From Neolewinella agarilytica (GTDB taxonomy: Bacteria; Bacteroidota; Bacteroidia; Chitinophagales; Saprospiraceae): DNA of 64,000 nt. Each line of letters opens with the position of its first letter. Position 1 is the stretch's first letter. The notes under the pieces were generated by a model. The model saw only the letters and a program-made list of their open reading frames with translations. It ran no database searches and was not told the origin of the DNA. A program made the position numbers and the translations under genes. Location of the stretch: contig NZ_FOFB01000003.1 in the NCBI RefSeq assembly GCF_900110645.1, positions 62,001 to 126,000 on the forward strand. The letters run 5' to 3'. Positions 1-64,000 of this stretch are shown here, piece after piece.

Positions 1-1005
1 GAGGTCGCGTTTGGTACGGTCAACCTCCCGATCGGCTTCCATGGTTTGTTGGCGGGCGGCGAGTATTTCCGGACGGCGGTTGAGCATAAATTCGGCGGCT
101 TCTTTAGCGGATATTTCCGTCTTCACTTTAGCATCGGGCAACTGTGGAAGGAGCAGCTCTCCCTCATAAGGGCGGCCCAATAATTGTTGGATGGAGGCGG
201 AAGCGGCAGCTACGAGGCGTTCGGCCCGCAGCAGGTTTTGTTCCGCGCTTGTGAGTTCGAGGCGGAGTTGTACCAGGTCACCCCGGTTAATCTTACCGAG
301 TTCGTAGCGCTTTTCGGCTACGGTGTAAAGTTGTTCGTTAGCCTGTTTGTTAGTCTCGGCAATGCGGCGTTCCTGATCGGCCGAGACGAGGTCAAAGAAG
401 CGCTCCGTAGCGTCCAGTGCGGCAGTGGCACGGGCGGCGGCCAGTTGCCGTTCGCTCACTTTTTGGGCGAGCGGTAATATTTTCCGATTCCACTTCCAGG
501 GGTTAAAGGCCAGCAGTGGCTGCCGGTAGAAAAGGCGAATGGGCGAGCCGTTGTACCCCTTGGTGTCTTGTGAAAAATTGTCGGTGCGTTGCAGGCGGCT
601 CTCCAGGCTGATGCTGCCGCCGGTACTGGCAATTTGCTGGCTGGCAAAGAGGCCGACGAAGCTGTTGTTGAGCTCAATTTCCCGGAAGGCAACGGTGCCG
701 TCGTCCTGGGTGACTTCAGTGCTGGTCCGGTAGTAATTCGGGAAATTAGCGTTTAGGTCCAGGCGGGGTTTAAGGCTGGCGTTAAAGGCCACCAGGTCAA
801 GATCGGCCGCGCGGAGATCCTGATCAGCCACCAATACCCCCAGCGCGTTTTGGGCCGCCATTTGTTGTAGCTCGCTGAGGCTGATGGTTGTTTGGGCGCT
901 AACGCAGGTGCAAAGAAAAGACAAGCAGCAAAGTAGGCCAGCGGTCAACACGAACCTGTTTTCTGTCTGCTTCTTACCCACCTTGATGATCATTGTCTTT
1001 AACAT
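1..1005 (-). CDS. TolC-family outer membrane efflux protein (C-terminus outside window)
   Basis: Reads leftward off the window start; 335 codons are visible and the C-terminus is missing. It would form the outer-membrane/periplasmic channel of a tripartite exporter. The N-terminus MLKTMIIKVGKK is followed by a hydrophobic segment and a cleavage-like CVSAQ end at about residues 32-38. Two long amphipathic coiled-coil stretches rich in Leu, Ala, Glu and Gln follow (for example AAARATAALDATERFFDLVS and EKRYELGKINRGDLVQLRLE), typical of the outer membrane efflux protein family. The gene lies 80 bp downstream of an HlyD-type adaptor on the same strand, so the two probably form one export operon. 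A second Met at 993 is possible. The signal-peptide end is encoded by a copy of the dispersed 18-bp repeat (894-912). Family assignment is firm; the exported substrate cannot be read. Confidence 0.88.
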   Translation of the reverse strand, partial: MLKTMIIKVGKKQTENRFVLTAGLLCCLSFLCTCVSAQTTISLSELQQMAAQNALGVLVADQDLRAADLDLVAFNASLKPRLDLNANFPNYYRTSTEVTQDDGTVAFREIELNNSFVGLFASQQIASTGGSISLESRLQRTDNFSQDTKGYNGSPIRLFYRQPLLAFNPWKWNRKILPLAQKVSERQLAAARATAALDATERFFDLVSADQERRIAETNKQANEQLYTVAEKRYELGKINRGDLVQLRLELTSAEQNLLRAERLVAAASASIQQLLGRPYEGELLLPQLPDAKVKTEISAKEAAEFMLNRRPEILAARQQTMEADREVDRTKRDL

Positions 1006-1027
1006 GTTTTCCGTTTTATTGGATGAT

Positions 1028-1085
1028 ACCCTGCAACCTGCAACCCGCAACCCGCAACCCGCAACCTGCCCCCCCTGCAACCTGC
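1028..1085. repeat. Tandem 7-bp repeat ACCYGCA
   Basis: Four direct units follow each other at 1036-1063 (ACCTGCA once, then ACCCGCA three times), with degenerate units on both sides. The array fills most of the gap between the adaptor stop codon and the TolC start. A related unit set, partly inverted, is found at 55949-56047. Confidence 0.8.
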
Positions 1086-3302: not shown

Positions 3303-3451
3303 GGCGACGTTCCGGAATGAGGAGCACTGCTCCGAAATCCTGCTGTACAACCTCCCCCTTGCACCCGTAAGGAACGGGATATGGGACCTGCGTTTGCGCC
3401 ACCAAACCGTCATATTTTATTTAGACTCACTAAAGACAGTGTGCGTTCCCC

Positions 3452-5889: not shown

Positions 5890-5998
5890 TGATATAGTAT
5901 GGTAGTAGGGGTAGTATGGTAGTGATGGTAGTAGCTGCCGCGCGTTGGAGGCGGCAGCTACTACCCTACTATAAATTCTATCATACTATCAGTACTAC
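5884..5998. terminator. Hairpin repeat between convergent genes
   Basis: A 14-15 bp stem (GTAGTAGCTGCCGC at 5928-5941 with GCGGCAGCTACTAC at 5951-5964) closes a 9-base loop. It is flanked by ATGGTAGTAGG-like and CTATCATACTATC repeats. It can serve feoB and the convergent TPR gene as a bidirectional stop. The same word family recurs at 55214-55280 and, more weakly, at 14955-15125, so it is also a repeat element. Confidence 0.65.
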
Positions 5999-5999
5999 T

Positions 6000-7802
6000 T
6001 TACTGCACCGCATCTCCCCTTAACTCCCGATATTTTTTCCGGGCTTCCACCGCCAGGATGGAGCCACTGTAATCGATGAAGAGTGTTTCGTAGAGTTCCT
6101 GCGCTTTGGCTTTGTCGTCGAGCTGTTTTTCGTAGAGGCCGGCGAGTTTCCAGAGGCTGTTGTCCAGTCGGATGCTTTCCGGGTAGTCATTGATGACCTG
6201 CTGGTAGGCAGCAGCAGCTTCTTCGTAGCGGCGGCGCTTAAGGAAGATGTCAGCCTTCAGGTACACGATATCGTCTTCGAGTTCGTGGCCAGGGAAGGAT
6301 TTCTTTAGCTCATCGAGCGTGGTGAAGGCTTCGTCAAAGCGATTCTGGAAGACGAGTAGTTCTGCGTCGGCGTAGGTCTGCAGGGCAAGTGAGCTGGTGT
6401 CCAGGCCGAGATTGTCAAGAATAAAGACGGAGAGGTCCAGTGCATCATTGGCGATGAGGCGGGAAGTGGAGGCCTTTAGTACGTCGAACTGCGACTGCGC
6501 CCATTCAAAATCTCCCCGAAAATAGCTGAGTCGGGCGTTGCGGAAGCGGGCTTCGTGGCCGAGTAGGTCTTCCTTGAATTTCTTGTCTACCTGAGAGTAG
6601 AGCAGGGTGGATTCCCAGACTTCTCCCTGCATCAGGTAATAGTCCGCCAGGGCGAGTTTAGCACTGGCCTGGGTTTTCATGTTAACGCCGGGGGCTTTTA
6701 CGACATCGGATAGAATGTTGATCGCTTTGTCCAGATCATTCAGGTACAGGGCTTCCAGCTCAGCGAGCTGGATGGCGATGCGGGCGGAGGCGGGGTTGGT
6801 GCCGAATTCGTCCAGGAATTCGAGATAAGAGGCCTCCAGAATACGGAGATCTTCTTCCGTGTAGTCATAGCCGTCGGTGATGGCCCGGCGACGGGTGAGC
6901 AGCCCCTCACGCTTCGCATCAAGATAGATGGCCGTGGAAGGACTCTTGTTTTCGATGATGTAGTCGTAAGCGTCAATAGCCGTCTCGTAATCGCGGGAGT
7001 TGGCCGCCAGCTGGCCGATGCTCAGAACCCGTTCTCCGTTTTCGTCGAGGCGTTTGTCCAGCGCCCGGGCCTGCCGAAGTGCTGCTTTATAGTCTTTAAG
7101 CTGGATGAAGACCCAGGCCAGCATTTCCGGGTAAGTTGTTTCTTTACTGTCCGCTTCCTGAATGCGGGTGTAGAGCTGTTTTTGGGCTTCCTGCAGGCCG
7201 TCCTTATCGAGGTAGCGCTGGAAGTAAGTCTGTACCTGCCGTGCTCGTTTGGGTTGATTGCCCACTGCGTCGAGGTAGTTACTGATCATAGGTTCCTTAT
7301 CTCCCTTGCGGCGGTAAAGATCACCGAGGTTATAGCTGAACAAACCTTTCTTTTTCAGCAGCTGGCTTCCTTTTTCATAGACTTTGATGGCGTATTCATA
7401 CTTCGTCATCCCGATGAAAGCATTCGCCAATTGCGTAATGCGAAACTGATCAGCGGGCAGTTCGTCTACCGCTTTTTGGTACTGTACTTTCGCTCCGGCT
7501 TCGTCAAATTTTTCCTCCAGTAACTGCCCGTACTTTACGTAAAGAGCTACTTCTTCCGGCCGCTTGCGGAGCTGCTTTTTCAGCGCGCTCTCCGCATCGT
7601 CAAAACGTTGGAGTTGTAGCAGACTGGCGATGTAGCGATCAAAGTAAAAGCTATTGTCCGGCCGCTCTTTTGAAAGTGCCAGATAGAGCTCTGCTGATTT
7701 TTCGTACTCTCCGTCCCGGAAATACTGCTGAGCCAGTTGATTGTTCTGAGCGGAAAGAATCGTGAAGGAAAAGAGGAAAGCTGAAAATAGTAACCAACGC
7801 AT
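6000..7802 (-). CDS. Tetratricopeptide repeat protein, exported
   Basis: 600 residues from the Met at 7802, chosen because it begins a clean signal peptide (MRWLLFSAFLFSFTILSAQ). The open frame extends 37 codons upstream, but into the palindrome at 7834-7904. The mature protein is made of TPR-like helical pairs throughout: YFRDGEYEKSAELYLALSKE near residue 27, LYVKYGQLLEEKFDEAGAKV, YEYAIKVYEKGSQLLKKKG and, near the C-terminus, RRRYEEAAAAYQQVINDYPE. The overall architecture resembles BamD/YbgF-like or Bacteroidota periplasmic TPR scaffolds. No catalytic domain is seen. It is expected to act as a protein-interaction scaffold in the periplasm. Confidence 0.85.
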   Translation of the reverse strand: MRWLLFSAFLFSFTILSAQNNQLAQQYFRDGEYEKSAELYLALSKERPDNSFYFDRYIASLLQLQRFDDAESALKKQLRKRPEEVALYVKYGQLLEEKFDEAGAKVQYQKAVDELPADQFRITQLANAFIGMTKYEYAIKVYEKGSQLLKKKGLFSYNLGDLYRRKGDKEPMISNYLDAVGNQPKRARQVQTYFQRYLDKDGLQEAQKQLYTRIQEADSKETTYPEMLAWVFIQLKDYKAALRQARALDKRLDENGERVLSIGQLAANSRDYETAIDAYDYIIENKSPSTAIYLDAKREGLLTRRRAITDGYDYTEEDLRILEASYLEFLDEFGTNPASARIAIQLAELEALYLNDLDKAINILSDVVKAPGVNMKTQASAKLALADYYLMQGEVWESTLLYSQVDKKFKEDLLGHEARFRNARLSYFRGDFEWAQSQFDVLKASTSRLIANDALDLSVFILDNLGLDTSSLALQTYADAELLVFQNRFDEAFTTLDELKKSFPGHELEDDIVYLKADIFLKRRRYEEAAAAYQQVINDYPESIRLDNSLWKLAGLYEKQLDDKAKAQELYETLFIDYSGSILAVEARKKYRELRGDAVQ

Positions 7803-8295: not shown

Positions 8296-9909
8296 CTACT
8301 TCGCCAAGCTCAAATGCTTCACACTATAAAAAAAGATGGCCCCATAACCCAGCGCCAGCAAAGCATGAAAAATCACGAAAGTGGTATTCTGCAAATAAAA
8401 AGCCCCCCATACCGCAAAGCAGAAGTACAGACTCAGGACACCTTCCCCGATGGTGATAAGGTTCAACTTGCCGTTGAGGTATTTCTGAGACGTGAGCTTG
8501 TCTTTAATCGTATTGATGTTGAACTTGGGCGTGCGGACGAAAGGGCTCTTCTTACCCCGGTACCCCTGTAATACAGCAACGGTGTTGTGGAGAGAAAGCC
8601 CCATGCTCAAGGCCAGGAATAGTGGAAACAGCAGCAAAAATTTCAGCACAGACTTCAGGAAACTTTGCTCCTTATTGGCCACACTCTGCACGTTGGCGGT
8701 GTAGTAGATGCCGATAACAGACAACAGACCCGCCAGGAAAATGGCGAAGAAGTTTTTGCTAAAGCCAAACTCCACCAGTTCTCCGAAGAGGAATAATAAG
8801 GGTACACTGAAGACACCACAAAGGAAGACGAAGAGGAAAATCGTACTGCCCAGCAAGTGTGCCGTAGCGTGAATTTTGTGGCCCAGTTTAATGTCACTTT
8901 TCCAGACGGAGGGAAGCATCTTCTTGGCGGTCTCGGCACCGCCCTTCATCCAGCGGTGTTGCTGGCTTTTGAAGCTGTTCATCTCTACGGGGAGCTCGGC
9001 GGGGCTGCCGACGTTTTCCAGGAAGTGAATCTTGTATCCGGCGAGTTGAGAACGAATGCTGAGGTCGAGGTCTTCCGTCAAGGTGTCCGGCTGCCAGCCG
9101 CCACCGGCTTCGATGGTGGCCCGGCGCCAGACGCCGGCAGTGCCGTTGAATTGTAGCAGGTGACCGCCGTTCATCCGGCCTACCTGCTCCACGGTAAAAT
9201 GCACGTTGAGCTGCAGCGCCTGCAAGCGGGTGATGATGCTGTAATCCTGATTGATGTGCTCCCAGCGGGTTTGTACGACGCCCACTTCGGGGTCCGCAAA
9301 GTGAGGGATCGTCCGTTGCAAAAACTCGGGGTCAGGCACAAAGTCTGCGTCGAAAATAGCGACGAACTCTCCTTTCGCCACAGGCATGGCATCCCGCAGC
9401 GCACCGGCCTTAAAGCCCTGCCGTTTTTCCCGGATGATCTGGTCAATGTTGAACCCTTTGGCACGGTATTCATCGACTTTAGAAGCGACCAATTCAACGG
9501 TTTCGTCTGTACTGTCATCCAGAATATGGATCTCAAAACGGTCTTTTGGATAGTTGAATTTTGCCACGGCATCAATGAGGCGACCGATGACGTAATACTC
9601 GTTGTAAATCGGCAGTTGAACGGTAACGAAAGGGTAGTAGGGTACATCGGCAGGCTCAGCAGGGGGCGCGGCCGCGGGTGCAGAGGATGATTCTTTAAAA
9701 GCATTGTCTGGCCCACCCACCCCGGCTAAGGCCGGGGCTGCTGCCAGCTCCTCTTCCGGTTGGAGATTGTTAAACGATACGGGATGATCCGTCGGGTTAT
9801 TACTCTGTTTGTAATGGTACAACAAGTTGAACTGCAGTAAACAATATACTGTGATGTACAAAAGAGAAACCGTATAGACGGCCAGCACAAAAAGGGCGAG
9901 TCCGGTCAT
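8296..9909 (-). CDS. Processive family-2 glycosyltransferase (cellulose-synthase-like)
   Basis: 537 residues, inner membrane. One N-terminal membrane segment (residues 1-30), a cytoplasmic GT-A domain and about four C-terminal membrane segments. The D,D,D,QxxRW signature is complete: LDDSTDE near 140, FDADFVPD near 188, TEDLDLS near 280, QQHRWMKGG near 317. This set marks processive beta-glycosyltransferases that polymerise and export a polysaccharide. The linker at about residues 55-90 (APAAAPPAEPAD) contains a copy of the dispersed 18-bp repeat (9665-9682) and looks like a tolerated insertion. Starts 2 bp after the stop of another family-2 glycosyltransferase, so the two are co-transcribed. 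No PilZ domain is seen. The sugar is unknown. Confidence 0.9.
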   Translation of the reverse strand: MTGLALFVLAVYTVSLLYITVYCLLQFNLLYHYKQSNNPTDHPVSFNNLQPEEELAAAPALAGVGGPDNAFKESSSAPAAAPPAEPADVPYYPFVTVQLPIYNEYYVIGRLIDAVAKFNYPKDRFEIHILDDSTDETVELVASKVDEYRAKGFNIDQIIREKRQGFKAGALRDAMPVAKGEFVAIFDADFVPDPEFLQRTIPHFADPEVGVVQTRWEHINQDYSIITRLQALQLNVHFTVEQVGRMNGGHLLQFNGTAGVWRRATIEAGGGWQPDTLTEDLDLSIRSQLAGYKIHFLENVGSPAELPVEMNSFKSQQHRWMKGGAETAKKMLPSVWKSDIKLGHKIHATAHLLGSTIFLFVFLCGVFSVPLLFLFGELVEFGFSKNFFAIFLAGLLSVIGIYYTANVQSVANKEQSFLKSVLKFLLLFPLFLALSMGLSLHNTVAVLQGYRGKKSPFVRTPKFNINTIKDKLTSQKYLNGKLNLITIGEGVLSLYFCFAVWGAFYLQNTTFVIFHALLALGYGAIFFYSVKHLSLAK

Positions 9910-14927: not shown

Positions 14928-15249
14928 GGGTGTGTTTTTTTGTGGGGCAAATATAGTCAAGGAGTCAGGTAGTCAAGCAGTCCGAGCGTCAGGCAGTCCG
15001 AGCGTCAAATAGTAGCTGCCGCTGTTTTCTGGTACGCTGCTTCGCCGCTGGCGGAAATGGTCTGTTGGTCTTTTGGGCTGCAATCCCCTCACGGCAGCAC
15101 TACTTGACTGCTTGACTCTCTGACTTATCAACCCTCCTTCGCTCCAAAACTCAGCCCTGCACCTGCGTTCGCGCCACTAAACTTCACTCGCTCATCGAAC
15201 TAAACCCCTGCTGTAATCCTTAGTTAGTTTCCAACCAAACTCAACAGCT
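14928..15249. other. Non-coding gap with an inverted-repeat element and an 18-bp repeat copy
   Basis: Between divergent fabG and ybaB. An imperfect inverted repeat runs from about 14955 to 15125: GTCAGGTAGTCAAGCAGTC-like arms on the left match GACTGCTTGACTCTCTGAC on the right, with TAGTAGCTGCCGCTG facing CGGCAGCACTA inside. It resembles the palindromic family at 5884 and 55214. A copy of the dispersed 18-bp word lies at 15158-15175. No gene is apparent. Confidence 0.6.
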
Positions 15250-20301: not shown

Positions 20302-20724
20302 ACGATTCCGTTTACTCTCCGCAGGCAGGTCCACTCCACCGCTTGCGGCCCCTTAGGGGAGACCGCAAGAGGAAAGTCCGGGCAGCGCAGGGCACCACGC
20401 CGGCTAACGGCCGGGGCCTCCCGAATGGGGGAGGTACGGAAAGTGCCACAGAAAGCTAAACCGCCTTTCCCTTCGGGGAAGGGTAAGGGTGAAAACGTGC
20501 GGTAAGAGCGCACGACGTTGCGTGGTAACACGGAGCGTGGGTAAACCCCGTGGGTTGAAATACCGAGCAGTATTGTTGCCGCTTGCGGCAGCCGGCGGTC
20601 CGTCGGTTCTTTCGGGAGCAATGCGGGTAGGTAGATAGAGCCCGGTAGCAATGCCGGGCCTGGATAAATGGTGGAGCTCACCGCCTTCGGGCGGTGATGA
20701 CAGAACCCGGCTTATCGGAATCCT
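20302..20724 (+). ncRNA. rnpB: RNase P RNA
   Basis: Catalytic RNA of RNase P, which matures tRNA 5' ends. Hallmarks on the plus strand are AGAGGAAAGTCCGGGC near 20369, GGAAAGTGCCACAGAAA near 20438, GGTAAGAGCGCAC near 20502 and CAGAACCCGGCTTATCGG near 20701. The ends are set by a closing stem: GATTCCG at 20304-20310 pairs with CGGAATC at 20716-20722. Length about 420 nt fits type A. Stem loops such as CCTTTCCCTTCGGGGAAGG show UUCG-like capping. Exact 5' and 3' ends are approximate. Confidence 0.93.
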
Positions 20725-21353
20725 GACTGTACATGACGGCCCGGCTCTCTTCGGAGGGTGCGGGTCGTCGCCGTTTTTTGTAGTTGGGTGGTCTGATAGT
20801 CTAGTCGGCTGCCGCATTTTATAGGCGGCAATGTAGGGGAGATGCGATATTGCCTCCAACGCCTCCAACGCCTCCAACGTAGGGTGGTTAGAATCTGAGA
20901 TTCAGCACTCTGAATTAGATTATTGCTGGAGAGTAAAAACGTTATAATTCACTGATAATTAATATCGAAGGGTAACCCCTCTCCCCCGGAGAGGGGCCGG
21001 GGGCAGGGCTAACGCATACTCGAAGCCGGACCCTCACCGCGAAGCAGCCCCGAAGGGAAAGGAACATTTTATCCTTCGCTCCGCTACGGAAAATGCACAC
21101 TTCGAGGTCCTAAATTGGCAGTCTAGGACCTCGAAGTGTGCTCAGCCATGGAGCCGGAGGCGAAATTGCTGAGTTCCTTTGAGCGTCCGGTGAGTATGCG
21201 TTAGCCCTGGGGGCCGGGGGAGAGGTTTCCTAACGTAGGCAGTCACAAATTCTAACTACCCTACCTCCAGCGCCTCCAACGCGCGGAGCCTACAAGACTA
21301 CCGAACCACCAGACTACAATACCTCCCTATCTTCGCACAAAATTTTCGACAAG
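20725..21353. other. Intergenic repeats downstream of rnpB
   Basis: No gene is seen over about 630 bp. From 20779 there is a reverse-oriented AGTAGTTGGGTGGTCTGATAG word, then a 9-bp tandem array CCTCCAACG (about four units, 20852-20879). The nested palindrome at 20978-21225 follows, then another CCTCCAGCGCCTCCAACG plus CTACAAGACTACCGAACCAC stretch at 21263-21320. The last part contains TATCTTCG near 21326, a possible promoter for the next gene. Confidence 0.6.
20978..21225. repeat. Nested palindromic element, about 250 bp
   Basis: Outer arms: the left arm 20978-21031 and right arm 21185-21225 share CCTCTCCCCCGG and AGGGCTAACGCATACTC in inverted order; the left has a 12-bp insertion. Next inward, AAAGGAAC (21058-21065) pairs with GTTCCTTT (21173-21180). 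The centre is a perfect 18-bp stem, GCACACTTCGAGGTCCTA at 21095-21112 with its complement at 21124-21141, and an 11-base loop. The layered symmetry resembles a MITE or a large structured repeat. The CTCTCCCCCGGAGAGGGG word recurs near 23304-23356. Confidence 0.8.
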
Positions 21354-45282: not shown

Positions 45283-45300
45283 TGCACCTGCGTCCGCGCC
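45283..45300. repeat. Exact copy of the dispersed 18-bp repeat
   Basis: TGCACCTGCGTCCGCGCC, the consensus form, between pnuC and tRNA-Asn. Other copies are listed in the findings. Confidence 0.8.
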
Positions 45301-45372: not shown

Positions 45373-45446
45373 GCCTCAGTAGCTCAGTTGGTTAGAGCGG
45401 CGGACTGTTAATCCGTAGGTCAAAGGTTCGAGCCCTTTCTGAGGCG
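45373..45446 (+). tRNA. tRNA-Asn (GTT)
   Basis: 74 nt. Acceptor stem GCCTCAG pairs with CTGAGGC; TA at 8-9; D arm GCTCAGTTGGTTAGAGC; anticodon arm CGGACTGTTAATCCG with anticodon GTT; T arm AAAGGTTCGAGCCCTTT. Discriminator base G. The 3' CCA is not encoded (GCC follows). Confidence 0.95.
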
Positions 45447-50557: not shown

Positions 50558-52027
50558 ATGATAGAATACCGTTTGATTTCCGCCAGTAAGAAGTGGTGCC
50601 ATGAGCACGCCCTCATTCGCTATACTTCAGCGACAGCTTTCAGGCTTGCAGTACCTGTTGGCCAAAGCTCCGGATTGCTCCGGATCGCTTTGCTGTTACT
50701 GATAAGCTTATGCTGGGCGCGGCCGCAGGTGCAGGGGCAAACCGATCTGAATGCCCGCTCTCACCGGCAACTACAGGAGTTCATCGAGTTCAACGAAGTC
50801 TTTGGTCAGGGGCATACCGGCTTCTGCCTCTATGATGTTGATTACCAGACTTTCCTGCACGGTTACAACGCTGATCGCCTTTTCGTGCCGGCCAGCAACG
50901 TAAAGTTGCTCACCTTTTACCTGGCGAACCGTCTGTTAGGGCATCGAACGCCGGCCATATTCTATCAGGAGTTTCCCGACCGGATCGAAGCCTGGGGCAG
51001 CGGTTATCCGCTGACTTTACACCCTGCCTTCACGGGCTACGACGAACTCGCTCCCTGGCTGCTGAACCAACGAAAGCCATTGGTTTTGAACTTCCCCCCG
51101 GGAGACGAATCAGTGGCCCGCTACGGCCCCGGCTGGAGCTGGGACGACTACAATGACAGCTACGTATACGAACGTTCCGCTTTCCCGCTTTACGGTAACC
51201 GCCTTTTTCTGGACCTCTCGGTTACGGATGCAGAAGGCCGGCAGTCCTTACTGGGAGCGCCACTGTCAATCGCTGGCGCCATGCGCCAGGTGCCTGCTCA
51301 GGAAGATCGCATCCGCCGCTCTGAGTTCGGGAATGATTTTACCGTCGGGCCTGATTTTTATGAGTCGGACCGCTTCCCGATTGAGCGGCCGCTTCACCTC
51401 TCTCCTTTTCTCCTGAGTAATGAGCTCTCTGCCGCTTACCCCGCACTACGGGTGAGCAGCGGGCAAAAAAGCTACCCACCGGCATCCACACTCAATGTGC
51501 TGGAAGCTTCTCTCCCTGACACCGTTTTTCGCCGCCTGCTGCAAGACAGTGACAACTTCCTGGGGGAACAATTACTGCTGCAAGCGGCCGCCAGCCGGTA
51601 TGCTCAGCCTGATGTAGAAGCCCTCCTGAGTTTCGCTAAGGATACCCTGCTGCCTGCCATCGGGGTTGAAAACATTCGTTGGGTAGATGGCAGCGGCCTC
51701 AGCCGCTATAATCTGCTTACCCCTCGCCATATGGCCCGCGTGGTGATGGCGCTTGATCAGGAGGTGGGCCGCGACCGACTCATTTCACTCCTCTCCGAAG
51801 GCGGAGTATCCGGCACGCTGGCTAACCGCTTTGATAATAAGCCGCAAGCATACGTATGGGCCAAGACGGGCTCTCTATCCGGCGTCGTTTGCGTTAGCGG
51901 CCTGCTGAAGACCGAAAGAGGAAAGTGGCTGGCCTTCAGCTTCATGCACAACAACTTCGTAGGCAGTAACCGAAATTACTACGCCGAAATGCAGAAGACG
52001 CTGAGCTGGTGCTACGAGAACCTGTAA
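50558..52027 (+). CDS. D-alanyl-D-alanine carboxypeptidase/endopeptidase (PBP4, S13 family)
   Basis: Residues 20 onward of the open frame are taken here (ATG at 50558; 489 aa). A TTG at 50675 would give a neat signal peptide, LRIALLLLISLCWARPQVQGQ, and may be the real start. Envelope enzyme that cleaves cell-wall peptides. The S13 motifs are complete: SxxK in VPASNVKLLTFYLA, SxN in DSDNFLGEQLLL, and KTG in WAKTGSLSGVVCVSG. The large insertion between SxxK and SxN, typical of class C PBP4, is present. An 18-bp repeat copy (50716-50733) encodes the signal-peptide end (ARPQVQG). Confidence 0.9.
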   Translation: MIEYRLISASKKWCHEHALIRYTSATAFRLAVPVGQSSGLLRIALLLLISLCWARPQVQGQTDLNARSHRQLQEFIEFNEVFGQGHTGFCLYDVDYQTFLHGYNADRLFVPASNVKLLTFYLANRLLGHRTPAIFYQEFPDRIEAWGSGYPLTLHPAFTGYDELAPWLLNQRKPLVLNFPPGDESVARYGPGWSWDDYNDSYVYERSAFPLYGNRLFLDLSVTDAEGRQSLLGAPLSIAGAMRQVPAQEDRIRRSEFGNDFTVGPDFYESDRFPIERPLHLSPFLLSNELSAAYPALRVSSGQKSYPPASTLNVLEASLPDTVFRRLLQDSDNFLGEQLLLQAAASRYAQPDVEALLSFAKDTLLPAIGVENIRWVDGSGLSRYNLLTPRHMARVVMALDQEVGRDRLISLLSEGGVSGTLANRFDNKPQAYVWAKTGSLSGVVCVSGLLKTERGKWLAFSFMHNNFVGSNRNYYAEMQKTLSWCYENL

Positions 52028-53743
52028 TCAGATCGTCCCGTTCCGCTTCATTTCCTTGTCTAAAAAGTCTACCGCTCGTGCCGTAAAGGCCATGTAGGTA
52101 ATGGAAGGATTCTGCGTGCCTGCGCTGGTCATAAAGGAACCATCGGTGACAAAAACATTCGGTACGGCGTGTACCTGGTTCCATTTGTTCAGTACGCTGG
52201 TCTTAGGGTCACGACCCATGCGGGCGGTACCCATCTCATGGATGGCGGCTCCTGGCGCAGTAGGTTGGTTGTGAACTTGTACGTTTTCGCAACCGGCGGC
52301 AAGCAGCATTTCTTCCAGGCAGTTCACCCCGTCGATGCGCAGCTTCCGTTCGTTCTCCTTCAGGCCGGCGTCGAATACCAGCATGGGGATGCCATACTTG
52401 TCTTTCTTCGTTTCGTGGAAATAAAAGCGATTCTCGTGGTAGGGGAGTAGCTCTCCAAAACAAGTTGCCCGGATGGTCCAGTCTCCGGGGCTGGTAATGG
52501 CTTCTTTGAAGCCTGCACCTAGCGGAGCATTGAGGTTCATCCCTCTGGCGGCTCCGCCCTGATAGCCGAAGCCACGGATGTAATCTTTGCGTTCGGTAGC
52601 CTTATCGATATTCCGGAAACGGGGGATGTAGAAGCCACCGCTGGGCTTGCGCCCACTGAAGTACTTGTCTTTATGCCCGGTGTAAGTACCGCTGCCGCCC
52701 ATGCCATAGTGATGATCCATGATGTTATGGCCCAGTTCACCACTGTCATTGCCCAGTCCGTCTGCGAAGCGCGCTGACTTACTGTTCATCAAAATGGCCG
52801 TGGAGCCAATGGTGCTGGCGTTAAGGAAAACGATTTTAGCGAAGTACTCTCTGGTCTCCATCGTCTCTGCGTCAATAACGTTTACGCCGGTAGCCCGCTG
52901 GGTTTTATCATCATAGATAACAGAGTGCACAATGCTGTTAGCCATCAGCGTCAGGTTTCCCGTGTCGTTCGCTACGGGGATGGTGGATGACAGGCTGCTG
53001 AAGTAGCCTCCGTATGGACAACCCCGCCAGCAGCGGTTACGGGCCTGGCATTGACCACGGGTGCCGTGGTGAAGCTCAGGGATGTATTTGGTCAGGTTGG
53101 CCGTCCGTCCGGGCGTAATCCGACGTACCGGCCACTTAGCCTCAACCGATTTCTTGAAGTGGTCTTCGACACAGTTGAGGTCGAAGGGTGGGAGAAACTC
53201 TCCATCCGGGACGTGAGCCAGCCCTTCCTTTTTGCCCTGTACCCCAACAAACTTTTCAACGTAAGTATACCAGGGAGCAATGTCTTTATAGCGCACGGGC
53301 CAGTCAACGGCTATACCGTCTTTCATGTTGGCCTCGAAGTCAAGGTCACTCCAGCGGTAGCAATGCCGGCCCCACATGATGGAGCGCCCGCCGACGTGCT
53401 CGCCGCGGATCCAGTCGAATCGTTGATCTTCTCCATAGTCCCGCTCATCATCCTTTACGATCCAGTGTTTATTGTCCTGGTTGACCCACCAGTTCAGGCG
53501 GTTTTGCTTGTAGTAGTGCGCTGCTATTTCCTCTCGTGGCACTTTGCCCTGAAATTCAAGATCCCAGCTGTCGAGGTTGGCCGTCGGGTATTCCCCGTGC
53601 TTTACCATTCGTCCACGCTCCAGCATAAGTACCTTATAGCCTTTTCGGCAGAGTTCCATTGCTGCATAACCGCCACTGATACCGGAGCCTACAACGATAG
53701 CGTCGTAGGTGACTTCGTCTTTACCTTGAGAATTGAATTTCAT
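52028..53743 (-). CDS. GMC-family oxidoreductase (paralog 1)
   Basis: 571 residues. FAD-dependent dehydrogenase of the glucose-methanol-choline family. FAD-binding GSGISGGYAAMELCRKGY (residues 18-35), MLERGRMVKHGEY, and the sequence GQCQARNRCWRGCPYGG with clustered Cys near residue 240. The C-terminal HEMGTARMGRD and NPSITYMAFTARAVDFL carry the catalytic His region. Close paralog of 56049-57776. Separated from the aminotransferase gene upstream by 96 bp. Probably oxidises a sugar or alcohol and passes electrons to a partner; no cytochrome subunit is visible. Confidence 0.9.
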   Translation of the reverse strand: MKFNSQGKDEVTYDAIVVGSGISGGYAAMELCRKGYKVLMLERGRMVKHGEYPTANLDSWDLEFQGKVPREEIAAHYYKQNRLNWWVNQDNKHWIVKDDERDYGEDQRFDWIRGEHVGGRSIMWGRHCYRWSDLDFEANMKDGIAVDWPVRYKDIAPWYTYVEKFVGVQGKKEGLAHVPDGEFLPPFDLNCVEDHFKKSVEAKWPVRRITPGRTANLTKYIPELHHGTRGQCQARNRCWRGCPYGGYFSSLSSTIPVANDTGNLTLMANSIVHSVIYDDKTQRATGVNVIDAETMETREYFAKIVFLNASTIGSTAILMNSKSARFADGLGNDSGELGHNIMDHHYGMGGSGTYTGHKDKYFSGRKPSGGFYIPRFRNIDKATERKDYIRGFGYQGGAARGMNLNAPLGAGFKEAITSPGDWTIRATCFGELLPYHENRFYFHETKKDKYGIPMLVFDAGLKENERKLRIDGVNCLEEMLLAAGCENVQVHNQPTAPGAAIHEMGTARMGRDPKTSVLNKWNQVHAVPNVFVTDGSFMTSAGTQNPSITYMAFTARAVDFLDKEMKRNGTI

Positions 53744-55105: not shown

Positions 55106-55297
55106 ATTCGTAATGTTATGAAGAGTTCAGGCGGAAAAACCCACCACCCATTGCTTTAAAAAAATCCCCTCTGCACCCGCGTCCGCGCCCCTTATTTTAG
55201 TCTGATAGTAAATGGTAGTAGTGATAGTATGATAGTAGCTCCCGGCATGCGGCAGCTACTATCATACTATCACTACTATCAAACTCGCATTACTATG
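55106..55297. repeat. Hairpin repeat and 18-bp repeat copy between cluster genes
   Basis: A 27-bp stem with one mismatch: GGTAGTAGTGATAGTATGAT-type arm at 55214-55240 with its complement at 55254-55280, loop CCCGGCATGCGGC. A copy of the 18-bp word lies at 55172-55189. Hairpin family as at 5884-5998. Confidence 0.75.
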
Positions 55298-56048: not shown

Positions 56049-57776
56049 CTAGATATTCATTTTTTTGAGCTCTCTCACCGCGTGATCCGCAGCGCGGGCG
56101 GTAAAGGCCATATAGGTTAAGGAAGGGTTCACGCAGGCTGCAGAGGCCATAAAGGCGCCATCAGTCATGTAAACGTTGGGCGCAGCCCAGAGGCGGTTGT
56201 GCTTGTCCACTACGGAATTTCGCTTGCTGGAACCCATGCGGGACATCCCCATTTCATGGATGCCCAGGCCTGGATAAGAGTGTGCATCGTAGGTGTTCAC
56301 ATCTTTAAAGCCGGCCGCTTCGAGCATTTCTGCCGCATCGTTCATCATCCGGTCTTTCATGGCGTAGGCATTAGAGGTCCACTTGGCGTTGAAGCTTATC
56401 GTGGGCAGTCCGTCCTTATCCGTGACCTCGCGGTTGATGGTCATGCGGTTATTCGTGTCGGGCAGTGCCTCAGCGAAAGCCGTCAGGCCTACCTGCCATG
56501 GGCCGGGGGCAATCAGAGCTTCCTTCATGCCAGGGCCTACCTTAACGTTCATTTCCCGAACGGCGCGCATCCAGTTGGTGCGGCTACCGCCGCCCTGGTA
56601 ACCCCAGCCGCGGACGAAGTCCTTGCTGGCACTGGCTTTGTCTCCCAGGTTTTGGTAGCGTGGGATGTAGACACCGTTTGGCTTGCGCCCTTTGTGGTGC
56701 TTGTCTCCGTATTCATCCAGCTTGCCACGGGCACCGACGCGGAAGTGGTGATCCATAATGTTGCCACCGAGCTCTCCGCTGACGTCCATGGTCATTTCTT
56801 CTTCATGCTCCGTGTTCATCACGATGAAGCTGGAAGGGATAGCGGAAGCACAGAGGAAAATGACCTTGGCGTAGAATTCGTGGTCTTCGCCCGTTTCCGT
56901 GTCGCGAACACGGACACCCTTAGCTTTGCCGGCTTCCTTGTCCATGATCAGACTGTAGACCGAACTATTGGGCCGCAGGGTCATATTTCCGGTTGCCTCG
57001 GCTACGGGAATGGTGGAGGACAGGCTGCTGAAGTAACCGCCAAAAGGACAGCCCCGGATACAGCGGTTGCGGTATTGGCAAGCACCACGCGTGCCTTTGT
57101 GCACGGCGGGGTCATAGGCGGTCAGGTGAGCTACCCGGCCGGCGGTAATGACACGGCCCATTTTATCCATTACACCTTTGCGAAGGTGATCCTCGGCACA
57201 ATTGAGGGGCATCATGGGCAGGAATTTGCCGTCGGGCAATTGGGGTAAGCCCAGAAGCTCACCGCTGATGCCGGCAAAAGTCTCAACATAATCATACCAG
57301 GGAGCAATCTCGTCGTAGTTGATGGGCCATGGGGTGCCGTGCCCGTCGCGGGCGTTGGCTTCAAAGTCCATCTGGCTCCAGCGGTAACTGTGGCGCCCCC
57401 ACATGATGGAACGGCCACCGACGTGGTAGCCGCGCATCCAGTCAAAGCGAGCCTTCTCGTCATCGTAGGGGTGTTCGCTATCCTTAACGAACCATTTCTT
57501 GTGAGACTCCCGAATGGTATACCCCGTTCGGTTTTGCTTAGGGTAGTGCTTGGCGATTTCGTCCTGAGGGGTTTGGTTGTTGTTGGGGAGTTCCCAATTG
57601 TCCAGGTTGGCCGTTTCGTAATCGATCACGTGCTTAACCATTCGCCCTTTTTCCAGAACGAGTGTTTTAAGCCCTTTGGTGGATAACTCCATGGCCGCCC
57701 AGCCGCCGCTGATGCCGGTACCGACAACTATGGCGTCGTAGGTGACTTCTTCGTCACCCTGAGAATTAAATTTCAT
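56049..57776 (-). CDS. GMC-family oxidoreductase (paralog 2)
   Basis: 575 residues. FAD-binding VVGTGISGGWAAMELSTKG (residues 16-34), KTLVLEKGRMVKHV, a Cys-rich CQYRNRCIRGCPFGGYFSS block at about 235 and C-terminal IHEMGMSRMGSSKRN with NPSLTYMAFTARAADHA. Close paralog of 52028-53743; the pair probably arose by duplication. The partner subunit 3 gene is 109 bp downstream, so this is the likely catalytic subunit of that complex. Confidence 0.92.
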   Translation of the reverse strand: MKFNSQGDEEVTYDAIVVGTGISGGWAAMELSTKGLKTLVLEKGRMVKHVIDYETANLDNWELPNNNQTPQDEIAKHYPKQNRTGYTIRESHKKWFVKDSEHPYDDEKARFDWMRGYHVGGRSIMWGRHSYRWSQMDFEANARDGHGTPWPINYDEIAPWYDYVETFAGISGELLGLPQLPDGKFLPMMPLNCAEDHLRKGVMDKMGRVITAGRVAHLTAYDPAVHKGTRGACQYRNRCIRGCPFGGYFSSLSSTIPVAEATGNMTLRPNSSVYSLIMDKEAGKAKGVRVRDTETGEDHEFYAKVIFLCASAIPSSFIVMNTEHEEEMTMDVSGELGGNIMDHHFRVGARGKLDEYGDKHHKGRKPNGVYIPRYQNLGDKASASKDFVRGWGYQGGGSRTNWMRAVREMNVKVGPGMKEALIAPGPWQVGLTAFAEALPDTNNRMTINREVTDKDGLPTISFNAKWTSNAYAMKDRMMNDAAEMLEAAGFKDVNTYDAHSYPGLGIHEMGMSRMGSSKRNSVVDKHNRLWAAPNVYMTDGAFMASAACVNPSLTYMAFTARAADHAVRELKKMNI

Positions 57777-57971: not shown

Positions 57972-58988
57972 CTATGCAATCCCCCGATTCAACCGGTTGA
58001 CCATGAAACCGAAGGCGCCGGCCATAACGGCGAGGATGATGCTCAATAACAACCATTGCTGGGCCGAGCTGGGGCCGAGCCCAACGCCCACGTCACCGGT
58101 TTCACCACGTAGCGCAGCAACAATGGTGCGGACGTTGTATTTGAGCATGCCCAAGTAAGTGCCAGCGGGACTGTCTGGTTCACCGAGGGAGTCCGCGTAA
58201 AGGTTACCACCGATGATGACGTCGTTGTCGGTAGCCAGCTGGCGGATCAGCTTTGGGTTAATGGTCGTTTCTACGAAAATGGCGGGCACTCCGGAGTTAC
58301 GGATGATGTTCGTAAGTCGGTTCACATCGTCGGTTTGTACCTCTGCGTCCGTGCTGGTACCCAGTGCCGCTTCGACCTGAATACCATAGTAGCGGCCGAA
58401 ATAGCGGAAGGCGTCGTGGCTGGTGATGAGGATGCGTCTGGCAGCAGGGATGGACTCTATCTGACGGAAAATTTCGGCGTCGAGATCCTGCAGTTGTTGA
58501 ATGTAAAGGCCTGCGTTGAAATCGTATACCTCTTTGTTGAAGGGGTCAAGTTCAATGAGGGCATCGCGGACATTTTCGGCGTAGCGGACGCCATTGGCGG
58601 CCGTCATCCAGGCGTGGGGATCGCTGGAATTGGCGTATTCTTCACTCTCGATGGTGCCGATGCCTTCGGTGATGGTCACGGTTTTTGCCCGGGTTCCGCT
58701 GTTGGCGATCAGCTCGTTCATCCAGCCCTCGAAGGTGAGCCCATTGATGAGTACGAGGTCTGCCTGAGAAACAAGGCGGACATCGTCCGGTGTCGGCTCA
58801 TAGATGTGTGGGTCACCACCGATCGGGACGACGGATTCAACGCGAACGAGATCGCCGGAAATCACTTCCGCCATGTCAGCAAAAATGCTGGCTGAACAAA
58901 CGACGAGTGGACGGGCATCCTTGTCTTCCTGGGCGCGGACGCAGGTGCAAACCAGAAGGATGAAAAGCAGGGTGATAAGACTACGCAT
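57972..58988 (-). CDS. Zinc/manganese-type metal-binding substrate protein, membrane-anchored
   Basis: 338 residues from Met at 58988 (MRSLITLLFILLVCTC). Signal ends in CTCVRAQEDKD, partly encoded by an 18-bp repeat copy (58932-58949). Cluster A-I ABC binding protein (ZnuA/TroA) with metal His/Glu/Asp in GGDPHIYEPTPDDV (about 65), SSDPHAWMTAANGVRY (about 130), ITSHDAFRYFGRYYGI (about 190) and IFVETTINPKLI (about 243). The C-terminus ends in a membrane helix (LLLSIILAVMAGAFGFMV) and basic residues. This tail is unusual for the family. No ABC ATPase or permease gene is adjacent. Confidence 0.87.
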   Translation of the reverse strand: MRSLITLLFILLVCTCVRAQEDKDARPLVVCSASIFADMAEVISGDLVRVESVVPIGGDPHIYEPTPDDVRLVSQADLVLINGLTFEGWMNELIANSGTRAKTVTITEGIGTIESEEYANSSDPHAWMTAANGVRYAENVRDALIELDPFNKEVYDFNAGLYIQQLQDLDAEIFRQIESIPAARRILITSHDAFRYFGRYYGIQVEAALGTSTDAEVQTDDVNRLTNIIRNSGVPAIFVETTINPKLIRQLATDNDVIIGGNLYADSLGEPDSPAGTYLGMLKYNVRTIVAALRGETGDVGVGLGPSSAQQWLLLSIILAVMAGAFGFMVNRLNRGIA

Positions 58989-59118: not shown

Positions 59119-59122
59119 ACTT

Positions 59123-60181: not shown

Positions 60182-60491
60182 AAATCAGCGGTCAGTATTC
60201 CCTGTGTAAAGCCTGAATGCTGACCGCTGAATACTAACAGCCCCAAAGGGGAAATATCCGCCCCGGGCGTAAATTTTGCTCCTTTATCCCTTTCATTGGA
60301 CCTGCGCTTGGTCGCCCCAATACATGATTCTATAGGTATAAACCGTCATTTTTACCTAGTCAGCGACCAAAATCTCAGCGTATACCCCTTACTCAGCTTT
60401 AATTACACCGCACAAGGTAAGATAACGATTTCAGGCTCTTTTCTAACCAATGGAGGCCTTGCATGAATTCGAGCTTACTTATTCTTGTGGT
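60182..60491. other. Gap with a hairpin and inverted words before the alcohol dehydrogenase
   Basis: TCAGCGGTCAGTATT (60185-60199) and AATGCTGACCGCTGA (60216-60230) form a 15-bp stem with one G-T pair, likely the end of the fic transcript. Further on, TTGGTCGC (near 60309) and GCGACCAA (near 60363) are inverted. No gene is seen; the promoter of the next operon is probably in this stretch. Confidence 0.5.
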
Positions 60492-61613: not shown

Positions 61614-61617
61614 AACT

Positions 61618-62424
61618 ATGAAACGATTTCGCACCACTGAGCTGTCCGATCCCCGCTTTGAAGCTGATGGCCTTCGCTTCATTACGGTAAAAACACGTCA
61701 CTTGCGTGGGCGGGGAGACATTTGTGTATTTGTGCCATCGGGTTACGGCCGGACAGACCTCCCGGTTGTTACTCTCTTACACGGTGTCTACGGTTCCTGT
61801 TGGTGCTGGGCGCTGAAGGGCGGTGCGCACCGCACCGCCGCCCGCATGATAGCCGCCGGGGAAATTCCACCTTTCGTTCTGGCAATGCCTTCGGATGGTC
61901 TGTGGGGAGACGGCTCCGGTTACCTGCCGCACCACGGGCGGGATTTCGGGCGCTGGATTTGCGAAGACGTTATTGATGCGGTAAGGTTGTTGGTTCCGGA
62001 AGCGAAAAACTCCCGGGAAAATTACTTGGGGGGACTTTCCATGGGGGGCTATGGAACCCTTCGTCTGGCGGGGGAGTATCCAGCAGTGTACCAGGCTGCC
62101 TCCGCCCACAGCTCAATTACCCGATTAGAGGAAATGGCCCGTTTCGTAGAAGAGCCCGTCTCAGACTACCGGGAAACGGACACTATTGAGGATGTTATTG
62201 ACCTGTTCCGGAACGAGCAAAATCTGCCCCGGCTTCGTTTTGATTGCGGGAGTGAGGATGAGCTCGTAAGCGGTAATCGATTGCTGCACCAGCAATTAAC
62301 AGAAGCCAGGATTGACCATGTCTACGAAGAGTTTTCCGGCGGCCACGAATGGAGCTACTGGGAAGAGCATTTGGTGGATAGCCTGCGTTTTTTCTTCGTG
62401 GATGAGGAGTTGGACTCCGACTAA
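61618..62424 (+). CDS. Esterase D/S-formylthiol hydrolase-like protein
   Basis: 268 residues, alpha/beta hydrolase. The oxyanion region VTLLHGVYGSCWCWALKGGA, the nucleophile elbow GGLSMGGYGTLRLA and the late FSGGHEWSYWEEHL with the catalytic His fit the esterase D family. In formaldehyde detoxification such enzymes hydrolyse S-formyl-thiol to formate. Follows the dehydrogenase by 4 bp; they are certainly co-transcribed. An esterase for another substrate remains possible. Confidence 0.82.
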   Translation: MKRFRTTELSDPRFEADGLRFITVKTRHLRGRGDICVFVPSGYGRTDLPVVTLLHGVYGSCWCWALKGGAHRTAARMIAAGEIPPFVLAMPSDGLWGDGSGYLPHHGRDFGRWICEDVIDAVRLLVPEAKNSRENYLGGLSMGGYGTLRLAGEYPAVYQAASAHSSITRLEEMARFVEEPVSDYRETDTIEDVIDLFRNEQNLPRLRFDCGSEDELVSGNRLLHQQLTEARIDHVYEEFSGGHEWSYWEEHLVDSLRFFFVDEELDSD

Positions 62425-62458
62425 GATTACTCACCCGGCGTGCAACTCCCCGATCGGG

Positions 62459-64000
62459 TTAATCCGTCAAAGCCGTGATCCGTACGCGGACAGATTTTGA
62501 AATCGGAGTATTACTTCCCCGGGCCGTGCGGGTGATCGGTACGAGCGTATTTGCCTCGGGGAAATAGGTGCCGATATTGCCGCGCGGAATAGAGTAAGGG
62601 ACCACCTGAAATAAGCGTGCGTGGCGCGTTTCTCCGTCATATTCACTACTTAGATTGACTTTGTCTCCGGTGGAGAGCCCCGCCTCGGCCATGTCTGCCT
62701 TGTTCATCATTACGATTCTCCGTTCGTTGTGAATGCCCCGGTAGCGGTCGTGCATGCCGTAAATCGTGGTGTTGTACTGATCATGGCTGCGCACGGTCAT
62801 CATCAGGTATTCACCGGGCTCAAGGATATGACAACTCAGCGGGGAGACGGTGAAGTGTGCTTTACCATCTTCGGTGCCAAAGCGACGATTACGTGGGCCG
62901 TTGGGGAGGTAGAATCCAGCGGGTTCGCGCACCCGCTCATTATAGCGTTCGAAGCCGGGTACACAGGCTGCGATGGCATCACGGACGTTGTCATAATCAT
63001 TGCTCATGTCCTTCCATTGCACCTGCGAGCGCGCCCCTAATGTTTTGCTGGCCAGGCCACAAATGATGGCTACTTCGCTGCGCAGGTTTTCACCAGCGGG
63101 CTTCAGTACACCTTTGCTCATCTGTACGACGCCCATGGAATTTTCACAGCTGACAAACTGCTCGCCCTGTGCCCGGATATCCGTTTCGGTGCGCCCCAGG
63201 CAAGGCAAAATAAGCGCCTGCTCACCGTGCACTACGTGACTGCGATTCGGCTTGGTAGAGATGTGGACCGTCAGTTTACACTGCCGGAGGCCCTTAGCTG
63301 TGTAGACCGTGTCCGGTGTTGCCGACAAGAAATTGCCCCCCAGGCCAAAGAAGACTTTCGCCCGGCCTTCGCCCATGGCTTTGATGCTGTTTACGACATC
63401 GTAACCATCTTTCTCCGGCGGCTCGAAATTGAAGTGAGCCCGAAGTGCATCCCGCAGTTCAGGCTTGAGTTTTTCCCAGACTCCGACCGTGCGGTCGCCT
63501 TGTACGTTACTGTGGCCGCGTACCGGGCAGATGCCGGCACCGGGTTTTCCGATGCTGCCCTTCAGCAATAGCAGGTTGACCATTTCCTTGATCACGTCAA
63601 CGGAGTTCTCGTGCTGGGTCAGCCCCATGGCGTAACAGAGAACGATCTTTTCCGAGCCGTGAATGAGGCCGGCGGCTTCTTCAATCTGATCGCGGTCAAT
63701 CCCGCAACCGCTGATGCATTGCTCCAGGTCAGTGGCCTCGAGCATGTTCGTCCAGGCCTCATATCCTGCCGTATGCTGTTCGATAAATTCCTGATCGAAA
63801 ACCGTACCGGGCGCTTCCTTTTCCTTCTCCCACAAAATCTTGCAGATAGCTCTGACCAGGCTCATATCCTCATTGATCCTGACCTGTAAAAAGAGGTCGG
63901 TTAGCTTGGTGCCTCGCTTCAGGATGTTGATGGGGTCCTGAGGGTCAACAAAACGCATTAGCCCGGTTTCTGGCAGTGGGTTGACACTAATGATACGGCC
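62459..64000 (-). CDS. FdhF-like molybdopterin oxidoreductase (N-terminus outside window)
   Basis: 514 visible codons; the gene runs off the right edge. Resembles the YdeP/TIGR01701 alpha-subunit family of formate-dehydrogenase-H-like enzymes. Motifs in reading order: ISVNPLPETGLMRFVDPQDP, KLTDLFLQVRINEDMSLVRA, VLCYAMGLTQHENSVDVIKE, RGHSNVQGDRTVGVWEK, and the C-terminal molybdopterin-binding domain YNTTIYGMHDRYRGIHNERR. The N-terminal part that would hold the Fe-S cluster and the Sec/Cys ligand is not visible. A weak 18-bp repeat copy (63018-63035) encodes ARSQVQ near the middle. Transcribed convergently to the alcohol dehydrogenase and esterase. Confidence 0.9.
   Translation of the reverse strand, partial: GRIISVNPLPETGLMRFVDPQDPINILKRGTKLTDLFLQVRINEDMSLVRAICKILWEKEKEAPGTVFDQEFIEQHTAGYEAWTNMLEATDLEQCISGCGIDRDQIEEAAGLIHGSEKIVLCYAMGLTQHENSVDVIKEMVNLLLLKGSIGKPGAGICPVRGHSNVQGDRTVGVWEKLKPELRDALRAHFNFEPPEKDGYDVVNSIKAMGEGRAKVFFGLGGNFLSATPDTVYTAKGLRQCKLTVHISTKPNRSHVVHGEQALILPCLGRTETDIRAQGEQFVSCENSMGVVQMSKGVLKPAGENLRSEVAIICGLASKTLGARSQVQWKDMSNDYDNVRDAIAACVPGFERYNERVREPAGFYLPNGPRNRRFGTEDGKAHFTVSPLSCHILEPGEYLMMTVRSHDQYNTTIYGMHDRYRGIHNERRIVMMNKADMAEAGLSTGDKVNLSSEYDGETRHARLFQVVPYSIPRGNIGTYFPEANTLVPITRTARGSNTPISKSVRVRITALTD

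Follow-up and report, generated by a model that had tools for sequence, protein, structure and literature searches.

The window analyzed here, a stretch of 64,000 nucleotides from Neolewinella agarilytica (contig NZ_FOFB01000003.1, positions 62,001 to 126,000), carries a dispersed motif that lies in genes and between genes on either strand. An earlier reading made from the sequence alone had described it as an 18-bp word in about 15 copies. We find that the motif is real, that it occurs throughout the genus as a DNA signal under selection or drive, that it exists in dialects, and that its copies exclude one another at short range on the same strand.

The motif and its copies

Sites were scored with a 36-column matrix built from 1.2 Mb of the N. 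agarilytica genome, with a site cut-off of 14 bits, and genes over 1.2 Mb were called with a home-made caller. At or above 14 bits the window holds 17 copies:

895–912, minus strand: 35.8 bits; intergenic by the home-made caller; read by hand in the minus-strand open reading frame (ORF) 1–1080 it gives LSFL-CTCVSA-Q, resembling the end of a signal peptide
3383–3400, plus strand: 19.0 bits; intergenic; missed by the sequence-only reading
9665–9682, minus strand: 35.5 bits; within a glycosyltransferase gene, encoding SAPAAAP
15158–15175, plus strand: 33.5 bits; intergenic
19024–19041, minus strand: 31.4 bits; within an amine-oxidase-type gene, encoding LAPASAA
24808–24825, plus strand: 26.8 bits; within a gene with FG-GAP and PI-PLC-X domains, encoding TAPASAP
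27587–27604, plus strand: 26.1 bits; on the antisense strand of cysS; 10 of 18 congeners exceed 12 bits at the orthologous position in gapless alignment
28984–29001, minus strand: 34.0 bits; intergenic, upstream of cysS
34899–34916, plus strand: 30.5 bits; within ORF 31975–35856, encoding SAPAAAA
38136–38153, minus strand: 34.8 bits; within an MFS transporter gene, encoding PAPAAAP
42212–42229, minus strand: 22.1 bits; intergenic, with an altered 3′ half (the "2-base insertion" of the sequence-only reading)
45283–45300, plus strand: 27.2 bits; intergenic, exact word
50716–50733, minus strand: 31.2 bits; intergenic or at a gene start
55172–55189, plus strand: 35.1 bits; intergenic; the same place is occupied in L093 (85% identity)
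58932–58949, minus strand: 26.9 bits; exact word, encoding the signal-peptide end LLFILLV-CTCVRA-Q
60297–60314, plus strand: 22.1 bits; intergenic; missed by the sequence-only reading
63018–63035, plus strand: 33.7 bits; antisense in the minus-strand gene from 62459

The earlier list was sound as far as it went: 14 matches to the word lie within 1–2 bases of the positions given, two of them exact as had been claimed, and the fifteenth copy, reported at 42210 with an insertion, corresponds to the matrix match at 42212. It was incomplete in that the copies at 3383 and 60297 had been overlooked. A match at 8112 on the plus strand (10.2 bits) is not counted among the 17.

With up to three mismatches allowed, the 14 matches to the word in the window compare with 0.08 expected (the maximum in 100 shuffles was one). 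Across the genome (6.22 Mb, 74 contigs) the word matches 588 times on the forward and 595 times on the reverse strand, that is 1,183 matches with balanced strands, versus 14 (6 and 8) for the reversed word. The claim that the frequency is far above chance is thus borne out by a roughly 80-fold excess, and nothing like a near-random count was seen. On the 1.2 Mb the matrix identifies 322 sites above the cut-off, approximately one per 3.7 kb, and five in the reversed control.

The core, deduced from 145 sites in 0.8 Mb, is C-N-Y-TGCACC-T-GCG-K-CC-GCGCC-c (which may also be written C-N-Y-TGCACCTGCG-K-CC-GCGCC-c), preceded by T/C-rich sequence and followed by a short A-rich tail of a few A's; its column frequencies are not palindromic. 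A second box lies upstream, with the consensus C-N-Y-TGCT-Y-T-T, so that core and box both start with C-N-Y-TGC; the TGCT of the box begins at −24 to −13 in 179 of the 322 sites, mostly at −17 to −22. Over its length of about 45 bp, variable spacer included, the whole motif carries about 30 bits. The GAGGG/GAGGA extension noted for several copies (CCCTC/TCCTC along the motif) belongs to this larger element with the upstream box. Because the spacing of the two boxes is variable and near two helical turns, the architecture suggests a protein that would bind double-stranded DNA through two flexibly connected parts.

More than half of the sites (169/322) are intergenic, although non-coding DNA makes up only about 14% of the 1.2 Mb. 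The remaining 153 lie within called genes, 88 in sense and 65 in antisense orientation, and their placement seems to be governed by tolerance. In sense frame 0 (29 sites) the motif encodes CTCVRA, and 13 of these 29 sit 33–57 bases from the start of the called gene, the region in which signal peptides end; in sense frame 2 (43 sites) it encodes APASAP-like strings, as do five copies in the window. The number of sites per 10 kb climbs with GC content (Spearman 0.44), from 1.33 in the lowest GC decile to 3.32 in the top quartile. A stretch of 20.3 kb at C26:144144-164441 is the longest without a site in the 1.2 Mb; it has 44% GC in a contig of 52%, and from its translated genes it looks like an acquired biosynthetic cluster of the polyketide or peptide type.

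Strand-specific spacing of sites

The sites are spaced more evenly than expected by chance, with a coefficient of variation of 0.77 between neighboring sites versus 0.99 for random placement, and the regularity is far more pronounced when each strand is taken separately (0.46–0.49). Pairs closer than 2 kb on the same strand are virtually missing: there are none on the plus strand, where 47.4 are expected, and three on the minus strand, where 39.7 are expected. At 2–4 kb same-strand pairs reach about half of expectation; past approximately 4 kb their density is near random, and a uniform lattice is rejected. Long same-strand gaps are likewise scarce, with 10 exceeding 15 kb where about 40 are expected. 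Between the strands the picture is different, as divergent pairs 50–250 bp apart occur in excess (24 vs. 4.3 expected) and convergent pairs at 250–1000 bp are depleted (7 vs. 16.1 expected). We also considered a strict alternation of plus and minus copies, to which the window points, but the 255 of 314 alternations seen, compared with 231.7 expected when one strand is shifted, are mostly a by-product of two regular strands.

The deficit of same-strand pairs, here below 2.5 kb, recurs in the dialects of other congeners described below: G004 has 8 such pairs where 30.5 are expected, G013 none vs. 12.8, G001 none vs. 4.3, G006 4 vs. 13.0, and G010, scored with its own word, 1 vs. 8.8. The weaker dialect sets (G003, G015, G017, G019, and G020) deviate in the same direction, that of G003 not significantly. 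Of 91 weak matrix matches (4–14 bits), 43 are situated within 2 kb of a strong site on the same strand and 52 within 2 kb of one on the opposite strand. Weak matches are therefore not excluded near strong sites, and composition does not explain the same-strand exclusion.

In 20-kb bins over the 1.2 Mb, the strand of the sites is unrelated to GC skew, taken as a proxy for the direction of replication (Spearman 0.05). The strand polarity along replichores that is typical of FtsK-orienting polar sequences (KOPS) was accordingly not found, as the strands are balanced and show no link to GC skew.

Since the exclusion holds mainly on the same strand, it points to strands that each serve as a substrate of their own, or to a machine that reads the signal while tracking one strand. 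If one signal per fragment is enough, as we infer, a spare signal on the same fragment would bring no advantage and would decay, and if the exclusion reflects such redundancy, pieces of DNA handled in one go would typically measure 2–4 kb. For Neisseria, the spacing of DNA uptake sequences (DUS) has been described as matching the length of conversion tracts (PMC2397512).

Dialects, orthologous sites and phage copies

The sequence-only reading had called for a count in relatives. Such a count yielded 88–1,806 matches to the word in 18 of 20 congeners, with the remaining two, G001 (19) and G010 (16), near background, and 0–24 matches in all 39 genomes of other genera. Among the matches listed in a search for the exact word (80 loci), all but four come from records titled Neolewinella, Lewinella, Saprospiraceae, or Bacteroidia; the four exceptions are Xenophilus, Thermalbibacter, Albimonas, and one Rhodothermaceae record, with one match each. 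The motif is thus confined to one genus, Neolewinella/Lewinella by record titles.

We then surveyed stretches of 10 other congeners and of one genome of a sister genus (G021) for dialects; it should be borne in mind that the matrix derives from N. agarilytica and scores other dialects too low. Variants of the motif were identified in all 10 congeners, clearly in five and on fewer sites in five. The dialects of G004 (TGCACCTGCGgCCgCGCC), G013 (GCACCTGCGGCAGCGCC), G001 (ttttACCTGCGCtCCGcCGCC), and G006 (cTCCtGCGCtcCG.CGCc) each had no matches in the reversed control, and further variants were found in G003, G015, G017, G019, and G020, at 16–26 sites each with 0–6 control matches at the first threshold. 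The word of G010, CaTTGCTACTTTGatagCcaaaa, is largely different from the common motif. With up to two mismatches, YTGCTACTTTGNNAG matches 893 and 885 times on the two strands of the G010 genome, where the reversed pattern matches 225 and 238 times; it occurs 33–140 times per strand in the other 20 genomes of the genus, and 25–421 times per strand in the 39 genomes of other genera, the maximum being in a genome of 11.2 Mb. The opening C-N-Y-TGCT of the G010 word is that of the upstream box, so a change in the relative weight of the two boxes may be what relates the dialects. No dispersed word stood out in 100 kb of the sister-genus genome G021, where the top words of a first count were part of tandem repeats.

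How sites arise was examined in orthologous DNA. The site within cysS (27587, plus strand) could be aligned without gaps, and the same place is above 12 bits in 10 of 18 congeners and below in 8, one of the latter having a short palindromic insertion. Seven relatives were compared more widely, and in four of them own sites fell in alignable stretches (six in G004, five in G013, two in G015, and two in G001); of these 15 sites 10 are shared and five absent. Among the shared sites four are gapless, two have at most six gap columns, and four have more. Three G013 orthologs carry the G013-dialect GGCAGCGC where the N. agarilytica genome has its own dialect, and so does the cysS site of G013. A larger set of 114 comparisons of orthologs, which represents 75 distinct sites with both directions counted and 59 comparisons at cysS loci, gave gapless alignments for 26 of 32 shared and 8 of 24 site-less genic comparisons. 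No clean insertion was found among the 114; four comparisons have runs of at least 18 gap columns opposite the site, with flanks 55–75% identical. Where the alignment is good, in-gene sites thus arise by substitution, in line with the origin by substitution published for the uptake signal sequences (USS) of Haemophilus (PMC1626085).

Other repeats and features were noted in the course of these comparisons. In the cysS of G019 (L172) a short palindromic insertion of the CCCGATTAAATCGGG type, possibly another dispersed repeat, lies at the motif position, and in several congeners (L175, L177, L178) a different repeat, GGTCCAACCG/CCGTTGGACGG, occupies the intergenic region upstream of cysS. The window itself has a near-perfect (94%) 32-bp inverted repeat of the CTACTATCATACTATC type at 55213–55281, with five bases between its arms, the second arm region of which resembles window positions 5951–6009. 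The neighboring minus-strand genes at 52028–53743 and 56049–57776 have common repeated blocks that are 70–79% identical and look paralogous. A search of the window against Rfam at gathering thresholds returned no known RNA family at the motif, the only hits being a class A RNase P RNA at 20325–20730 and one tRNA at 45373–45446.

The motif also occurs in phages. In IMG/VR, 31 stretches contain exact TGCACCTGCGKCCGCGCC, 15 of them from one family, and five (L334, L343, L359, L360, and L364) were dropped as weak or deviant in composition. PHROGs matches include a tape measure protein (L348), a head maturation protease, endolysin, and tail fiber (L340), a tail fiber (L337), and a terminase large subunit plus a portal-like match (L339). 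In 12 representative stretches (117.7 kb), which come from 10 contigs and fewer independent families with redundant family members left out, there are 17 sites beyond the seeds, or one per 6.9 kb, and none in the reversed control; as an exact match was the criterion for choosing the contigs, these counts leave out one seed site in each stretch. No same-strand neighbors in the 12 stretches are closer than 3,345 bp (n = 10). Judged by the motif alone, the tailed-phage contigs L335, L337, L339, L340, L344, L345, L347, and L348 and related loci may be Neolewinella phages. A single phage protein, searched without a positive control, matched in none of the 21 genomes of the genus and gave no sign of integration.

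Candidate functions of the signal

Our preferred reading, in which our confidence is evenly balanced, is that the motif lets the genus recognize its own DNA and most likely serves as an uptake sequence. The 18-bp word would be the core of a bipartite, predicted protein-binding signal of about 45 bp with its upstream box 17–22 bases before the core, and the signal would mark DNA of the genus as self. A putative surface receptor would prefer fragments that carry it, ComEC would then import one strand, and DprA and RecA would recombine the imported strand. Alleles with a good signal would be imported more often and so would spread by drive or selection, and if each strand is a separate substrate, this would explain why only copies on the same strand are redundant, within about 2–4 kb. 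We infer the protein binding, the uptake, and the separate treatment of the strands.

Uptake sequences have been described for the Pasteurellaceae and Neisseriaceae (PMC7811141, PMC1939737), and USS and DUS are marked by balanced strands, somewhat regular spacing, a preference for non-coding DNA, origin by substitution, flanks about one helical turn apart, and dialects (PMC1626085, PMC3630211, PMC2397512). The even spacing of USS (Karlin et al., 1996, as cited in PMC2238722) is disputed in PMC1939737, and PMC2346458 cites the placement of USS as "apparently randomly." The Neolewinella motif has in common with the USS of Pasteurellaceae its hundreds to thousands of copies without orientation bias, semi-regular spacing, non-coding preference, core and flanking segments about a helical turn apart, and clade-specific variants. 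It differs in belonging to another phylum, in an unrelated word, in a density of about one per 4 kb (USS occur about once per kb), in having few hairpin pairs, in that a type IV pilus ATPase was not found in Neolewinella, and in the strand-specific exclusion of close copies, which those parts of the USS literature available to us do not describe. With the DUS it shares species dialects within one family (PMC3630211 and PMC2397512, in the portions accessible), but it is longer and bipartite and one congener (G010) has a largely different word. The DUS receptor ComP is a type IV minor pilin, according to the available text of PMC12061091. In most of the features examined the Neolewinella motif resembles an uptake sequence, the exceptions being the pilus, the phages, and the strand rule. 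We do not place it within the USS/DUS class, because its uptake is predicted and the known machine was not found.

Part of a competence machinery is present. The gene comEC was identified in all 21 genomes of the genus and dprA in 20 of 21, while proteins with the HHH_3 (ComEA-type) domain were found in 18 of the 19 tested; the genome lacking the latter two is the same one, 55% complete. As both the comEC and dprA families also occur in motif-free genomes, they are necessary rather than telling. Type IV pilus ATPases power uptake in the known USS/DUS systems. All matches to PF00437 in the genus are partial and short, some of them barely reaching the cut-off, and lie in frames of about 300–1,070 amino acids; full-length matches occur in two other genomes of the order. 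The neighbors of comEC vary among genomes and offer no candidate receptor. A further comparison is with the transformation system of Riemerella anatipestifer, which shares the phylum and, by domain, ComEC, DprA, and a helix-hairpin-helix protein, and in which a DUF5689 protein and a neighboring outer-membrane protein are essential; the accessible text mentions no uptake word (PMC8459023). These two proteins are absent from 20 of 21 genomes of the genus and kept by G010, the outer-membrane protein having only short N-terminal or weak partial matches in the 20. By domain and gene order a Riemerella-like operon is present in G010, G021, G022, and G024, and comprises an outer-membrane protein (carboxypeptidase-regulatory and TonB-plug-like) and a triple DUF5689 protein (L266:5673-10601 in G010, L267:5355-10216 in G021). 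A nuclease gene (Exo_endo_phos_3) adjoins the operon in G021 and lies elsewhere in the genome of G010; it was not found in 15 other genomes of the genus tested at E-values up to 1e-20. The motif-bearing congeners therefore do without the Riemerella-type module, whereas G010, which has the module, has the deviant word.

Several observations weigh against an uptake sequence. The genus yielded no type IV pilus ATPase by PF00437, the sole family tested, and DUF5689 was found in none of the 20 genomes other than G010. That strand matters for redundancy is unlike a simple double-stranded uptake model. All five sites absent from relatives have more than six gap columns, with gaps beside or in the site, and 31 of 34 site-less intergenic comparisons have at least 15 gap columns; as the alignment there is mostly too poor, intergenic site-less orthologs do not exclude indels. 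The depletion in low-GC DNA may arise partly because the motif itself is GC-rich. The open-access literature searched yielded no uptake or transformation assay in the genus and no paper that pairs an uptake sequence with Saprospiraceae, and the papers listed on DNA uptake sequences or Lewinella do not, by title and abstract opening, concern a motif of this kind. Lastly, tailed phages carry the motif at about half the host density, which one would expect less if the signal spread through chromosomal transformation; this is the main reason that our confidence in uptake goes no higher. The phage copies agree with phages that profit from host uptake or recombination, and no less with a Chi-like protective mark.

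It is this carriage by phages that keeps an intracellular self mark of the Chi type a live rival, albeit one we consider rather unlikely. A strand-moving nuclease of the AddAB/RecBCD type, or another directional translocase, would read the signal in one orientation and switch from degradation to repair, so that either strand, taken by itself, would require a site every few kb and phages would benefit from carrying it. Such a mark shares with Chi the orientation dependence and a similar density (Chi occurs about once per 4.6 kb in E. coli and acts on one strand), and it accommodates the strand-specific exclusion with nearly independent strands, the scarcity of same-strand gaps over 15 kb, and the wide same-strand spacing in phages, never below 3.3 kb in the stretches examined. 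Known Chi sites, however, are 5–8 bp long and have a strand bias along the replichore. The motif is far longer, and its roughly 30 bits with a variable spacer are more like a two-site binder of double-stranded DNA; it has no strand bias with GC skew; and dialects that turn over inside a single genus, up to a largely new word, change quickly for the target of a core repair enzyme. We know of no dialect series of Chi within one genus. A site for a nucleoid-organizing or chromosome-segregation protein (for instance a loader of structural maintenance of chromosomes (SMC) complexes or a bridging protein), with a spacing that serves compaction, would agree with the more than random regularity, the coverage of all contigs examined, and the intergenic preference, yet compaction does not predict an excess of divergent pairs together with same-strand exclusion, and the missing skew bias, the dialect change, and the phage copies also speak against it, making it improbable in our view.

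The sequence-only reading had offered an uptake or segregation motif, a protein-binding site, or a very small mobile element. The first group holds up as a class, with a replication-oriented segregation motif disfavored by the balanced strands and their independence of GC skew. To a tiny mobile element of the repetitive extragenic palindrome (REP) or miniature inverted-repeat transposable element (MITE) kind, with target immunity, we give next to no credence: many dispersed copies, an exclusion that could mimic immunity, and frequent gaps in intergenic site-less orthologs would suit it, but well-aligned in-gene orthologs are gapless and graded by substitution, the larger gaps, when inspected singly, lie mostly beside the core and not over it, the four long gaps opposite a site all have poorly matching flanks, and the core is not palindromic; on the well-aligned orthologs it is rejected. 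A regulatory or terminator element of genes is very improbable as well. Intergenic enrichment, often near gene starts or just past stops, would fit, but nearly half of the copies are inside called genes on either strand, close convergent pairs able to form terminator hairpins number merely three in 322 sites, and we know of no regulatory meaning for same-strand exclusion over kilobases.

Returning to self-DNA recognition, we tentatively propose, as a joint claim that we hold to be somewhat doubtful, a strand-resolved self-DNA code in which each strand has its own long bipartite signals with an exclusion zone of about 2–4 kb. A machine that does not use type IV pili would read them on DNA that is single-stranded or followed along one strand; the dialects would shift within the genus, and phages would copy them. 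If true, this would be a new way of discriminating own from foreign DNA, one that fits the classical form of neither uptake sequences nor Chi sites. As a quantitative clue, the same-strand exclusion bears on the way in which such a signal is read, and it can be checked in the known USS/DUS systems, while the dialect set of the genus, together with G010 and its Riemerella-type operon, provides a route to finding the receptor. If the motif is an uptake sequence, it would be a third independent case of uptake signals, in Bacteroidota without type IV pili, and would allow a test of which features of such signals (drive, spacing, dialects) are general and which are bound to the pilus.

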